Shown: piece by piece, positions 46,114 to 53,099 of the stretch | Numbering within the stretch: position 1 is the first letter of the stretch | How the letters are laid out: each line of letters begins with the position of its first letter | NCBI GenBank assembly: GCA_020747065.1 | Contig: JAGMVK010000001.1 | Coordinates: 3,472,001-3,536,000 of the forward strand | DNA: 64,000 nucleotides | Source of the DNA: Cadophora sp. MPI-SDFR-AT-0126 | Lineage: Eukaryota > Ascomycota > Leotiomycetes > Helotiales > Ploettnerulaceae | Reading direction: 5' to 3' | Made by a program: the position numbers and the translations under genes | The notes under the pieces: generated by a model | What the model saw: the letters and a program-made list of their open reading frames with translations, nothing else | The model's database searches: none | What the model was told of the DNA's origin: nothing

Positions 46114-48528
46114 ATGTCCACCATTGCAGACCAGCACCAAGAAGTTTTTCTTCACAATAAACTTTTCATCGAGATCAACCATCAGGATTCCGGAATCCCC
46201 ATTCTGTTTATGACAAACGACGACAGGACCTCCGACTCAGCAGAAGGCACACCTATCAAGACAATGCCATCGGCAACCGTAACGACTACCAACCACACAA
46301 TGCCGAATGGAAATGGCCCAGGCAAAAAGAATATCAACATCACTGATTCCCTACATGATCTCCAAAGCGATGAGCAGCGGAGAATCCTGGATACAGTTGC
46401 TCAAGTTCGGAAATGTGGTCTTGAAAGCATTCTGAACCTGCCACAACTTGTTGTCTGCGGTGACCAGTCAGCTGGAAAGAGTTCAGTTCTTGAAGCATTG
46501 ACGGAGATCCCCTTTCCCCGAAATGACAATCTCTGTACTCGATTCGCTACAGAGATCATCCTTCGTCGTGCCCCCAATGACTCTCTGACAATCAAAGTCA
46601 TACCTGACGACCAACGACCTGGAAACGAGCAGGCGAAAATCAGAGCATTCGAGGAGTCTATCACGGACTTCGAAGATCTTCCAAAGATCATGAAACTGGC
46701 TATGGAGGTCATGGGAATGAACGAAGACAATGAATCCTCGTCAAATGCAGCAGCATTTGCCAAAGATGTCTTGAGCATCGAAATCGAAGGACCGTCTCGT
46801 CCGCAGCTCACCCTTGTTGACATTCCTGGGCTGATCGCAAATGCAACGAAGGGTGTCACTGATGCCGATGTGAAGATGGTTGCCGAGATCACTGAGCATT
46901 ACATCTCGCAGCCGCGAACAATCTGCTTGGCTGTCATATCTGCTACAAACGACCACGCAAATCAACCGATCCTCACCAAAGTCAGAAAGCACGATCCTCA
47001 TGGCGACCGCACCCTAGGCATTGTTACAAAGCCCGATCGCCTTTCGTCTGGTTCCGGTAGTGAAAAAGCCTTTATCTCATTGGCACAGAATGAAGATGTA
47101 TTTTTCCGCCTTGGATGGCATGTCTTGAAGAATCGCAGCTTCGAAGAGGGGAATTGTTCGTTGATGGAGCGCAACATTGCCGAGGATAGCTTCTTCCGCA
47201 CCTCGAACTTCAAAGTGCTGCCCAAAGAAACTGTTGGCATCAATTCTCTGAGGACTCGACTGAGCAGACTTCTATTCGGACATGTGAAGCAAGAGCTGCC
47301 GAAGCTACGCCAGGACCTGGAGGATGCGCTTGCCAACACGAAGGCTCAGATCTCCATCCTTGGGGATCGACGATCCACCCCAGAAGAGTGCAAGGCTTAT
47401 CTCTCTCAGCTCAGCTTGGAGATCTATGAGATTACCAAGGCTGCAGTCGATGGTCATTATGAGGGGGAGTATTTCCATAAATCAATCTGCCCGAGCACCT
47501 TCGAGGAAGAAAATGGTGCGATCTCGGTCAGCCGTATCCGAGCCATTGTACAGAAGATGAACACAGAGTTCGCGGAACTGTTTCGCAAGATGGCCCACAA
47601 GTACCATATTGAAGTCAGTGAAGATGACGAGGATGGGCTATATCCATTTGATCCACATTGGGATGATGATTTTTCCAACGAGTTTGGACTACAGATCACC
47701 ACCCCACATCAGATCACGAAGGCCGAGGCTCTTCGATGGGTCCAGCGAGCTCTAGCGAATACTCGTGGTCGTGAACTGGTTGGCAACTACAATCCACTTC
47801 TCGTGGGAGTCTTGTTTTGGGAACAGGCATCAAAGTGGAAGCGAGCAGCTTCAGATCACATTGAAAATGTCGCGCTACAGTGCGAGAACTTCCTGAAGAT
47901 ATTACTTCGCGACAAGTGCCCAAAAGAGGTCGAAATGAGATTGTGGGACACCGCCATCCACGATGCTTTGAAGGAGCGCACCAACCAAGCCCATGCCGAG
48001 TTGGACAGGATTATCGAAGATGCCAATGGCTACCCCATCAACTACAACCACTACTACACTGAGACAATCAAAAAGCGACGTACCAACCGACAGCGTACTG
48101 CCCTCGAGAAGACCGCCAAGAAAGCAACCAGAACCAGGCGAGAGAGCGACGCGGAGGGCACGGAGTTCATCACCACAACCGTTGATGTCGAGCAAATCGT
48201 CAACGAGATGACAAACAGCAACGATCAAAGCATGGAGAGTTTCGGATCCGAGGAAGCTCTCGACTGTCTCCTCGCCATCTACAAAGTCTCTCAGAAGACC
48301 TTCATCGCTAACATCACCACCCAGGTCATCGAGCGTCACATCGTTCGAGGTCTGGAGAAGATCTTCTCGCCGGTTGCTGTCAATGCCATGTCAGATGCCG
48401 AGGTTGAGGCCATCGCCTCCGAACCAACATCTGCGAAGCGCCAGCGTGACTTCCTGGAGGATCGCGTCAAGAAGCTGCAGGATGGCCACAACATTTTCAA
48501 GGGTGTTATGGGGTCGGCTAGGCAGTGA
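46114..48528 (+). CDS. Dynamin-superfamily GTPase (Mx/Vps1-like)
   Basis: Large GTPase expected to oligomerise on membranes and remodel them. 804 aa, intronless. G1 is GDQSAGKSS (~residue 116). G2 is a Thr within NLCTRFATEI. G3 is DIPG (usually DLPG) around residue 237. G4 is TKPD around 306. The stalk (middle) domain follows, with a charged segment KKRRTNRQR near 660. The C-terminal GED-like helix runs ALDCLLAIYKVSQKTFI...ERHIVRGLEKIF. No PH or proline-rich domain, so it is closer to the Mx/Vps1 branch than to classical dynamin. An alternative start at the ATG at about 46210 would remove a weakly conserved leader. Fungal genomes often carry many such paralogues beside the core Vps1; which one this is cannot be settled here. 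Confidence 0.92.
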   Translation: MSTIADQHQEVFLHNKLFIEINHQDSGIPILFMTNDDRTSDSAEGTPIKTMPSATVTTTNHTMPNGNGPGKKNINITDSLHDLQSDEQRRILDTVAQVRKCGLESILNLPQLVVCGDQSAGKSSVLEALTEIPFPRNDNLCTRFATEIILRRAPNDSLTIKVIPDDQRPGNEQAKIRAFEESITDFEDLPKIMKLAMEVMGMNEDNESSSNAAAFAKDVLSIEIEGPSRPQLTLVDIPGLIANATKGVTDADVKMVAEITEHYISQPRTICLAVISATNDHANQPILTKVRKHDPHGDRTLGIVTKPDRLSSGSGSEKAFISLAQNEDVFFRLGWHVLKNRSFEEGNCSLMERNIAEDSFFRTSNFKVLPKETVGINSLRTRLSRLLFGHVKQELPKLRQDLEDALANTKAQISILGDRRSTPEECKAYLSQLSLEIYEITKAAVDGHYEGEYFHKSICPSTFEEENGAISVSRIRAIVQKMNTEFAELFRKMAHKYHIEVSEDDEDGLYPFDPHWDDDFSNEFGLQITTPHQITKAEALRWVQRALANTRGRELVGNYNPLLVGVLFWEQASKWKRAASDHIENVALQCENFLKILLRDKCPKEVEMRLWDTAIHDALKERTNQAHAELDRIIEDANGYPINYNHYYTETIKKRRTNRQRTALEKTAKKATRTRRESDAEGTEFITTTVDVEQIVNEMTNSNDQSMESFGSEEALDCLLAIYKVSQKTFIANITTQVIERHIVRGLEKIFSPVAVNAMSDAEVEAIASEPTSAKRQRDFLEDRVKKLQDGHNIFKGVMGSARQ

Positions 48529-49118
48529 GTGTCTAGATTGATGAGATCTTGTTTTGAGGAGTTGAATGGTTTCCATTTTTTTTGTTTGTGGACACAGTAA
48601 TATAGAGAGTTTCAGGAAGCGTCATAGTCAGAGGTCAGGAGTTCAAAAACACGCCGTTTAGCTTGTTAACTCCTCGCCTTGCATTTTACTATCTCTTCAG
48701 GAAATACTACAATCATTTAGATCCCAAGCAGCAGCATTGAAGCCTCTCATCGTCGGTAACTCCTCAAGTGAACGCCAAGGATTGTCAGGATCGGCTGGAC
48801 TTTCAAAAACACAAGATCAGATATCTCATAGGCTATGACTTCTTTCTAGAACTTCTGCAACAATTTTTGTTGCCGTTTCTTCAATATTTACTTTCCTATC
48901 CTTGATTCGGACCAGTCGCGTTCGTTTTTGTTTCCTCCCGGTAAACAATTTGTCGAGTCTAGGCAGATGCTTCTTGGCGTCCCTGTCCCTTTGGAAGCGA
49001 GCGGCGCAGACATTCGTAAAAGCAGACGACCCTGAATTCGAGTTCATATCCTGCATCAACCCCTTCCTTCTGCTTTTCAGTCTCTCTGCCCACATACCCA
49101 GCACAATCATCATCTACA
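48529..49118. other. Intergenic region and leader of H3-tail/F-box gene
   Basis: No gene seen. The last 100 bases are CT-rich and end in CATCTACA before the ATG, a normal fungal 5' leader. Confidence 0.5.
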
Positions 49119-50282
49119 ATGGCCCGAACAAAACAAACAGCTCGCAAATCAACGAGCGGCGCGGCACCGCGAAGACAACTCGCTGGCCTTCATCATCGAT
49201 CATATCATTCTCTCAAGTACAGTCAACTCCCATCACATCGCCACACATTAACATCCCACCCAATCAATTCCAGTACATCTAAAGCTTCAAAAGCCCAGGA
49301 CAAGGTGTTATCCACTCCGGACCTTCTCATCATCATTCTATCCCAGCTTCCTCATTCATCCTTGCTCAAAGCCAAGCTGGTGAACAAAACTTGGGCGAGT
49401 CTCTTTGGGAACGTGGAGATTCAAGCTGCTTTATTTGTAAATCCTAGGCCAAAAGAGTCGGCGATGTATACGGAGATGTACTCGGATTTATTGACGGATA
49501 GATGGGCGGATTTTTGGTCGGTTAGTGGGGTGCATGAGGACGAAGAGGATTCGGATGGAGAGGAGTCAGAAAAAGAACAATCCGAAGCAGGAAAACCGGA
49601 CAGAGTGGAGTCAGACGGGGAGGGATTGAGCGAGGCTGTGGTACCAAAAGGATCTATTGGGAAGAGACACCATCCCAAAGAACATGTCAAGACAGATGGC
49701 CGAGGGAGAATAACTCTCGAACTCCGACTATCACGACACAGTGACAGCACCGACACGCCTCACCCATGGCAGTGGCGACAACTTCTCTTCTGTCAACCAC
49801 CCGTCGAAATCCTTGAGATTGTCCAACAAATTAACAGACGCTCAGGCCCAACATTGGAATTCCGCACTACCATCCATCGCCCCGGCGGTCTACGAATGGG
49901 ATTCCTCTACGATTCTGTCAGGTACTGGCATGAAGTCGAGCGAAGCTCTGTGGAATTGCTCTGGGATCGGAAGACTGGAGATTTGGTCGATGAATGGAAC
50001 TATTACATTGACGGTGACAGTTTCAAGACGGAGGAAGACAAACCTTGCGTCACGATCTGGGGAAAGACGAGTGTCGGATGTGGACAGTATGGGGGGCTTA
50101 CATATGAGAGCTATGGACCTCCTCGTGAGGGGCAAGCGAGAAAGGCGAGAACGAGGTATATAAAGAGTGGTGATGAGCAGGTAGCGTTTCAAATGTCGGA
50201 GCCTAGAGCTATAAGTTATGATTTGAGCTTTCTGTCGGATCCTCGGGAGGAGGAAGAAGGGGACGAAGAAGAGGAGGATTAA
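49119..50282 (+). CDS. F-box protein with histone H3 tail-like N-terminus
   Basis: Predicted SCF ubiquitin-ligase substrate receptor. 387 aa if read through. Residues 1-22 are a near copy of the histone H3 tail: ARTKQTARKST, then SGAAPRRQLA, matching H3 at 18 of 21 positions. K4, K9, S10 and the R2/R8/R17 arginines are kept; G12 is Ser, K14 is Ala and K18 is Arg, so the main acetylation sites here are lost while the methylatable ones remain. An F-box follows at about 63-105 (LSTPDLLIIILSQLP, LLKAKLVNKTWASLF). After an acidic linker comes a C-terminal domain of unknown type and a second acidic tail. A possible 57-nt in-frame intron (donor after HSL, 49217-49273) would shorten the linker but keep both tail and F-box. 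Without the tail the protein looks like an ordinary fungal F-box paralogue. Confidence 0.85.
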   Translation: MARTKQTARKSTSGAAPRRQLAGLHHRSYHSLKYSQLPSHRHTLTSHPINSSTSKASKAQDKVLSTPDLLIIILSQLPHSSLLKAKLVNKTWASLFGNVEIQAALFVNPRPKESAMYTEMYSDLLTDRWADFWSVSGVHEDEEDSDGEESEKEQSEAGKPDRVESDGEGLSEAVVPKGSIGKRHHPKEHVKTDGRGRITLELRLSRHSDSTDTPHPWQWRQLLFCQPPVEILEIVQQINRRSGPTLEFRTTIHRPGGLRMGFLYDSVRYWHEVERSSVELLWDRKTGDLVDEWNYYIDGDSFKTEEDKPCVTIWGKTSVGCGQYGGLTYESYGPPREGQARKARTRYIKSGDEQVAFQMSEPRAISYDLSFLSDPREEEEGDEEEED

Positions 50283-50899: not shown

Positions 50900-53099
50900 A
50901 TGCTGTTTCTAATTGTAGCACTGTTGGCTGCGCCGACTGTTCTGGCGAACTTTCCACCGCCGCTTGAGGGGGTGAAGACGTTGAAATCGAAGTACCACGA
51001 AGGCGTGACGATTTCATATAAAAAGGTGTGAGATCGCTTCAATTGCTTGACAGCGATATGAACTGATACCTATCTAGCCGGGTTTGTGTGAGACGACACC
51101 GGGTGTCAAAAGCTACAGCGGCTATGTCCACCTTCCTCCCGGCCTGTTGTCCGACATCAACGGAGAATCTCAAGATTATCCGATCAATACGTCAGTCTCC
51201 TCTATTCAGCTCCCAAAGTCGCAAATCTGATTCTAGACTTTAGATTCTTCTGGTTCTTCGAGTCCAGAAAAGATCCTCACAACGCCCCACTCTCCATCTG
51301 GCTCAATGGTGGGCCAGGCGGCTCATCCCTCATGGGCCTCCTCCAAGAGAACGGCCCCTGCTTCATCGGTCCAGACTCCAATTCCACGATCCTGAATCCC
51401 TGGTCCTGGAACAACGAAGTCAACATGCTATATCTCGACCAACCAGCTCAAGTCGGATTTTCCTACGACATCCTCACGAACGTGACTGTCAACTTCGCCG
51501 CAGAAGAAGACGACAAGATAATTCAAGCCGTCAACTTCACCGACGGCGAGATCCCTAAACAGAACCACACTTTTTTTACGGGTACTATGGGCAGCCAGTC
51601 GCTTACCACAACCGCGAACTCCACGACGCATGCGGCTCATGCGCTCTGGCATTTCGCGCAGACCTGGTTTTCGGAATTCCCTGCTTACAAACCACATGAC
51701 GATAGGATCAGTTTGTGGACGGAGAGCTATGGTGGGCACTACGGACCGGGGTTCTTCAAGTTTTTCCAGGAGCAGAATGAGAAGATTACCAATGGGACGA
51801 TCAAGGAGAAGGGGACTCATTATTTGCATCTGGATACCTTGGGAATTATAAATGGGTTGCTGGATATGGTTGAGCAATTGCCTGCGTATCTTGAAATGGC
51901 TTATAATAACGTTTGTTTACCAGAAGGTTTTAGGATTGCGTGTGCTGACTTGAGGTAGACCTACGGTATTGAACTGGTCAACAAGACGACGCATGACGAG
52001 GGGATGGATGCTTGGTTCAAGCCTGGGGGATGCAAGGAAAGGTGGGTGAGGTGTCAGAAGATAGCTGATGAAGATGACCCAGACTGGAGGGGTAATGTGC
52101 CTTCGGTAGTGGAGTGCTTCGATGAGGCGGCAAAGGACTGCAGCTCAATCATGAATGCTGCGACAAATATCACTGTAAGTAAAGCCACATCGCCGTCATC
52201 GTAGAAGTGCTGAATCCGTCACAGTGGGGCTGGTATGATATTGCCCATCCTCACGCAGATCCTACCCCAGAACCATGTAAGTCTGATGCTAATTAACAAC
52301 TGTTCGTCTACTGACGATAATTCAAGACATGCTCGGCTACCTCACCCAATCCTGGGTCCTCGAGGCCCTTGGCGTCCCAGTCAACTTCTCCTCCAGCTCC
52401 CCAGCAGTCTACTTCGCCTTCGCCGGAACCCACGACATCGAGCGCCGGGGCTCTATGGAAGCAGTTTCCTACCTCCTAGATAGCGGAGTAAAAGTCCACA
52501 TGGTGTACGGCGACCGTGATTACGCGTGCAATTGGCTCGGCGGCGAGACCGCTTCGCTGGCTATCCAGTACTCTGGAACCGAGGAGTTCAAGAATGCAGG
52601 GTATGCGCCGATTCTGGGCTCTGAGGGAGTTGGTGGGTTTGTTAGGCAGTTTGGGAATTTCTCGTTTTCGAGAGTCTTTCAGGCGGGTCATGAAGGTATG
52701 TGCCGACTTCATTTTCAATTACATTAAACTTCATATCACGGACTTACTGACGAATTCCTAGTGCCGTGGTACCAACCTGAAGTGTCGTACAACATCTTCA
52801 TGCGCGCCATGTTCAACAAGGACATCGCTACTGGTCTGCTGCCCGTCTCGGACGACTTGACAACCCTCGGCCCTTCGTCGACTTTCCACATCAAGAACGC
52901 AGTCCCCTCTGCTCCAGAGCCAAAGTGCTATATCTTGAATCCGGAGACTTGTACCCCTGAGCAGTATGCTGGAGTCAAGGATGGGTCGGCTATCGTGAGG
53001 GACTTTTTTGTTGTGGGCAGTGTGAGACATGAAGATGTTGAAGTGGGAGGGGAGAGTGGACAGAGTGTTCTGGAGGATATTGGACAGTCGGAACTTTAG
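50900..53099 (+). CDS. Secreted serine carboxypeptidase (family S10)
   Basis: Removes C-terminal residues from peptides at acid pH; secreted or vacuolar. Seven exons (50900-51025, 51078-51190, 51244-51910, 51959-52174, 52225-52276, 52327-52695, 52762-53099) give 626 aa. A signal peptide ([16 protein letters not shown]) is followed by the S10 fold: [33 protein letters not shown]. The nucleophile Ser is in [10 protein letters not shown] (~241; the usual Gly before Glu is Thr), the Asp in [10 protein letters not shown] (~456) and the His in QAGHEVPWYQPE (~513). Several NxT/S sites suit a secreted glycoprotein. Every intron is placed by conserved sequence across the junction. All catalytic residues are present, so it should be active. 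Confidence 0.94.

Follow-up and report, generated by a model that had tools for sequence, protein, structure and literature searches.

The genome of Cadophora sp. MPI-SDFR-AT-0126 harbors a gene in which a mimic of the histone H3 tail is joined in frame to an F-box domain, and the analysis of a 64,000-nucleotide stretch of this genome (here called the window) confirmed that the arrangement is real. The gene occupies positions 49119 to 50282 on the plus strand as an uninterrupted open reading frame (ORF) of 387 amino acids plus stop codon, with no intron needed. The protein begins with MARTKQTARKSTSGAAPRRQLAG, and its first 22 amino acids (MARTKQTARKSTSGAAPRRQLA, 49119 to 49184) constitute the mimic. 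Residues 2 to 22 (ARTKQTARKSTSGAAPRRQLA) are identical to residues 1 to 21 of H3 at 18 of 21 positions, including all of H3 residues 1 to 11; the three differences are G12S, K14A, and K18R. Calculated from composition, at least 18 matches in 21 at one place have a probability of about 1.2e-19, so that this resemblance of a non-histone protein to a histone tail exceeds chance. Among the best 60 of the 130 PDB hits that phmmer gave with an E of at most 1, H3 tail peptides ranked first; their alignments began at residue 1 or 2 and ran to about 23 (lowest E 1.9e-4, 24 bits), the E value being modest because the matched segment is short. The initial annotation had described the 18/21 identity after the Met, dismissed chance as an explanation, and placed the tail in frame with the F-box; the residue comparison, the phmmer matches, and the composition-based probability agree with the first two claims, and a single ORF of 387 codons, unbroken across tail and F-box, with the third.

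Similarity to H3 ends near amino acid 22 or 23. The adjacent region (amino acids 23 to 66, 49185 to 49316) is, by composition, a Ser/His-rich linker without further H3 similarity, and none was found in a comparison of its DNA with the H3 body (P 0.78). The F-box domain spans amino acids 67 to 100 (49317 to 49418) and is recognized by PF00646 with E 2.5e-5, a modest match of 24.4 bits against a curated Pfam cut-off of 20.5; as it begins at 49317, it sits at the far end of the interval first reported (49119 to 49320). A histone fold was not detected in the 387-amino-acid protein by Pfam (PF00125, E up to 1). Further downstream, the sequence contains an acidic loop (amino acids 139 to 172, 49533 to 49634) and an acidic C terminus (DPREEEEGDEEEED, amino acids 374 to 387, 50238 to 50279). 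Part of the C-terminal region (49773 to 49928) is common to the paralogues described below, and W219, R220, Q226, P227, E233, G257, G261, L263, and W270 are invariant among the four sequences of the alignment (A1). Single-sequence structure prediction of the whole protein was unusable (mean pLDDT 31.8, pTM 0.19). The gene is flanked upstream by a gene for a dynamin-family GTPase of 804 amino acids (window positions 46114 to 48528, plus strand; Dynamin_N, 4.3e-31) and downstream by a gene which, judged by eye, resembles an intron-containing serine carboxypeptidase (about 51092 to 52700, plus strand).

Searches of the genome (54 Mb in 38 contigs) with the mimic protein and with one paralogue as queries revealed four further members of the F-box family, located on C36, C12, C5, and C20. 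The paralogues on C5 and C20 were matched with E values of 0.017 and 0.34 by the mimic protein and of 4e-6 and 7e-12 by the paralogue query. Over full frames, identity to the mimic protein amounts to 25% (L010), 26% (L012), and 23% (L014). Neither these three full frames nor the first-ATG frame of the remaining paralogue, L011, contain an H3 tail. Counted from the first ATG, 13 (L010), 12 (L012), 31 (L014), and 22 (L011) residues precede the proline equivalent to amino acid 67, compared to 66 residues in the mimic protein. Pfam placed the F-box of one of three paralogues above the cut-off and of two just below it, and a comparably acidic stretch was found only in L014 among the four frames, at another place. 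Since the paralogues are tailless, the tail and the Ser/His-rich linker were either added in the mimic protein or lost in the others.

Across the genome, a start codon followed by a mismatch-free MARTKQTA sequence occurs at two sites, i.e., the mimic gene and the canonical H3 gene. Allowing up to two mismatches yielded 7 sites in the whole genome versus 4 for a reversed control pattern, and the looser pattern ATG-Ala-Arg/Ser-Thr-Lys yielded 40 versus 25. Translation of 30 of these 40 sites gave no further clear H3 tail besides those of the mimic and H3. The two sites that come nearest were not taken as mimics. The first (L026, C1:3035037, plus strand; MARTKAKARRGPDGHAFRENAK) opens a frame of 296 codons and is identical to H3 at 10 of its first 22 positions; its product has an ARTK N terminus that H3K4 readers might notice. 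The second (L032, C3:76778, plus strand; MARTKTTARAEDA, MARTKTTAR) has eight of its first nine residues in common with H3, probably by chance, and reaches a stop after 26 codons. Pattern searches in viral contigs (7 matches) and in bacterial and archaeal genome contigs (32 matches) revealed no relatives; neither collection is fungal, and both are uninformative on conservation.

The canonical H3 gene lies on the minus strand of C2 (start codon at 804865) and reads as a standard 136-residue H3. Despite the shared residues, i.e., the identical block of residues 1 to 11 within the overall 18/21, the two genes differ in several respects. Host H3 has a histone fold and an intron exactly after K9 (AAG|GTAAGA ... 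TAG|TCC), both of which the mimic lacks, and the synonymous codons of the two are unrelated. Over 23 codons, 49 of 69 bases are common; after the Met, codons for the same residue differ in 12 of 18 cases and are identical in 6, where random synonymous choice would give 4.4 ± 1.7 (P 0.26). Ahead of the two start codons, similarity over 300 bases does not exceed that of shuffled DNA (local score 19 versus a mean of 19.9, P 0.61). A recent copy of host H3 would retain H3 codons and is thus disfavored. The initial annotation had considered capture of the 5' end of an H3 gene likely; in that form the proposal did not stand, and the K9 intron, the unrelated upstream DNA, and the lack of a synonymous memory led us to reject a recent or simple genomic capture. 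A capture would be conceivable if it was old, having passed through mRNA or predated the intron, or if a different H3 gene was the source; otherwise, the likeness would have to be convergent. An origin from CenH3 was also rejected, as the apparent CenH3 gene (C4:1253534-1254038; labeled by eye, with histone-fold matches) begins with MSTKQRMRLGAGEAS and by eye has only TKQ in common with the mimic. Two other CenH3-like loci were noted, again labeled by eye: L006 (C12:3567367-3567811, plus strand), which contains each of the three CenH3-like exon pieces and might be a second CenH3 gene, and L002 (C12:3122132-3122320, minus strand), with the CenH3-like C-terminal part only.

The codons of the tail resemble those of the gene in which it resides. 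Its log-likelihood is -28.7 under the codon usage of the F-box body, -30.0 under that of the dynamin gene, and -41.2 under that of the H3 body; the resulting log-likelihood ratio of -12.5 is compatible with the F-box body (P 0.42), whereas each of 5000 draws from H3 usage gave a higher value. The match to the F-box body is imperfect, since the tail is richer in A-ending codons (A at the third position in 52% of codons, compared to 25% in the F-box body and 19% in the neighboring dynamin gene). The coding sequence of host H3 uses AAG for all 14 lysines and ACC for seven of eight threonines, and never ACA. In the mimic tail, by contrast, K4 and K9 are both encoded by AAA, and T3, T6, and T11 by ACA, ACA, and ACG, respectively. 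At least these changes thus most likely took place on the mimic lineage.

Pairwise comparison of the mimic with host H3 gave an omega of about 0.014 under two codon-frequency models; the comparison is short, and its distance estimate is poorly determined and saturated. In the pairwise codon model for these 22 codons, omega = 1 was worse by a 2dlnL of about 31, and the upper bound is ~0.1. We furthermore simulated drift from the host H3 tail as starting point, with all change on the mimic branch, at three kappa values and seven distances, and counted runs in which at least 18 residues were kept and at least 12 synonymous changes had accumulated. Not one of 12,600 runs of a neutral tail gave this outcome. 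With omega set to 0.3, no setting reached it in more than 0.2% of runs; the highest share was 8% for an omega of 0.1 and 46%, in one setting, for an omega of 0.03. These tests of constraint cover one genome and 22 codons, with host H3 as a proxy for the source, and they would give a similar picture if the tail had been captured fairly recently from an H3 gene whose codon usage differs from that of host H3. The simplest reading of the sequences is an old association that strong protein-level selection appears to have kept while the codons were re-spelled. Protein-level constraint in turn suggests that the tail is translated, and taken by itself, the existence of a constrained, translated H3 mimic is highly probable from these sequence comparisons.

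A rather recent fusion with the H3 of another species or with a lost H3 paralogue whose codons were F-box-like, leaving a tail that may be idle, would agree with evidence that comes from one genome, with a DNA identity to host H3 of only 49/69, and with the excess of A-ending codons over the F-box body. It is, however, quite improbable, as no second H3-tail gene was detected in the genome by pattern, and the compatibility of the tail codons with the F-box body (P 0.42) would be a coincidence.

Examination of the translation start argues for synthesis of the tail as well. In-frame Met codons are present at positions 1, 116, 120, 260, and 359, of which only the tail's own precedes the F-box; an F-box protein must therefore start there, barring an unseen spliced upstream exon. 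The start context (ACAATGGC) was rated good, and the reading frame is closed upstream by a TAA at 49017. The 400 bases ahead of the gene contain two ATGs, both in other frames, and the ORFs that they open (4 and 22 codons) stop before the gene is reached. None of three patterns tried yielded a donor-like site in 49119 to 49330. Acceptor-like sites are present in the tail (49140) and in the linker (49222, 49273, and 49298), so that, judged by sequence alone, some transcripts could skip the tail. That real transcripts start or splice downstream, leaving the tail an untranslated illusion of annotation, would agree with these four sites, but the position of the only Met ahead of the F-box, the good start context, the short and out-of-frame upstream ORFs, and the protein-level constraint on the tail make it very improbable.

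With respect to the substitutions, T3, K4, K9, and S10 and their neighbors up to T11 are intact in the mimic. The initial annotation had called the changes selective. The retention of K4, K9, and S10 alongside K14A and K18R stands; the stronger claim of selectivity is unwarranted, since it considered two changes, leaving G12S undiscussed, and since all three changes would fall within residues 12 to 21 by chance in ~9% of cases. According to an excerpt of PMC3248561, the in vitro activity of Neurospora DIM-5 requires R8 to G12 of H3 and was abolished by G12P. G12S, which lies within this segment, is not among the DIM-5 substitutions in those tables of the same paper that were examined; K9 methylation of the mimic is thus uncertain, and G12S might stop DIM-5. 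The same tables give K14R and K18R as leaving DIM-5 activity intact, so that methylation at K9 should not be blocked by the absence of K14 and K18. The K4 side, A1 to T6, is untouched, which would favor factors that read the free N terminus.

Candidate partners are encoded in the genome. We found a Pre-SET exon for which Neurospora DIM-5 is the best relative of solved structure (E 2.6e-28), with no SET domain detected by Pfam in the examined frame of this gene, an HP1-like chromo-shadow exon, an LSD1-like frame with SWIRM and amine-oxidase domains, and a Skp1 gene. Given these genes, plausible binders and a ligase adaptor exist. The first ~10 residues of H3 are bound or modified by PHD-type, LSD1-type, HP1, and DIM-5-type factors and by T3 and S10 kinases, and an initiator Met is removed before Ala. 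In the mimic protein, Met removal would expose a free ARTKQTARKST... end, as in histone H3, to which PHD-type H3K4 readers, an LSD1-type demethylase, HP1- or DIM-5-type H3K9 factors, or T3/S10 kinases could bind. The F-box, together with Skp1-Cul1, would then bring a ubiquitin ligase to the bound factors, or the ligase to chromatin complexes. Recruitment of this kind and a decoy role had both been put forward in the initial annotation, and both stay hypothetical.

We thus tentatively propose, as a reading with a reasonable though not an even chance of being correct, that a translated and selected H3-tail mimic on an SCF-type F-box protein serves as bait that joins the ligase to H3-tail binders. 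The proposal draws on the 18/21 identity at the exact N terminus, the constrained tail, the F-box, the machinery genes, and the tailless paralogues; G12S, the modest F-box score, the excess of A-ending codons, and the lack of a usable structure model count against it. In this model, Met removal, binding, the targets, and the function as ubiquitin ligase are inferred, as is translation, for which constraint is the evidence. A more far-reaching version, possible but rather doubtful, is that the H3 N terminus captures readers or writers for ubiquitin-dependent removal, which would make the protein a long-lived, native bait-based degrader that tunes heterochromatin. A precedent for SCF at silent chromatin exists in SCF-Dia2, which, according to an excerpt of PMC3405993, acts on Sir4 in silencing; like the mimic protein, such fungal SCF F-box proteins have an F-box followed by a C-terminal region.

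The tail could instead act as a decoy or pseudosubstrate that occupies an H3-tail enzyme or reader (e.g., LSD1 or an H3K4/K9 enzyme), with the F-box controlling turnover of the decoy. We consider this unlikely, even though the whole block of residues 1 to 11 is kept, the tail spans 21 residues, and two candidate sites for ubiquitin or acetyl groups would be gone with K14 and K18. A precedent is EZHIP, likewise a cellular protein, which presents an imitation of part of the H3 tail to a histone methyltransferase; its H3K27M-like peptide makes contact with the active site of EZH2, as described in an excerpt of PMC6513997. According to the same source, EZHIP imitates the K27 region through 12 residues of C-terminal sequence in which Met replaces Lys, whereas the mimic corresponds to residues 1 to 21 and retains Lys at both K4 and K9, without the Met for the target Lys of the EZHIP/oncohistone type. 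With both lysines retained, an enzyme would be expected to modify the tail as a substrate and not to be trapped by it.

Intact K4, K9, T3, and S10, with their neighbors to T11, and the presence of DIM-5-like and HP1-like genes are also what would be expected if the F-box protein itself were modified by K4/K9 methylation or T3/S10 phosphorylation, so that its localization or activity is switched and it is placed on chromatin in an HP1- or PHD-dependent manner. This, too, appears improbable, and G12S may weaken recognition by DIM-5 (excerpt of PMC3248561). The preferred reading remains that of a bait for H3-tail binders.

Histone mimicry usually involves a short motif; the best-known cases come from pathogens and from certain chromatin proteins, with G9a, influenza NS1, and SNAG-domain proteins as examples. 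Candidate H3K9/K4-like motifs in non-histone proteins have been described, according to an excerpt of PMC10611923. Like these, the mimic is an H3-tail-like sequence on a non-histone protein that H3 factors could read; they are short linear motifs, whereas here 21 residues stand in H3 register at the true N terminus of an F-box protein. No F-box protein with an H3 tail was found among the matches listed for the open-access PMC literature (titles and abstract openings). Histone mimicry as such is an established phenomenon; what sets the present case apart is how long the mimic is, that it stands in exact register at the N terminus, and that its partner is an F-box. On the practical side, antibodies against the H3 tail may cross-react with the mimic protein in Cadophora sp. 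MPI-SDFR-AT-0126. If the proposed function is true, the H3-tail code would be directly tied to targeted protein turnover in fungi.
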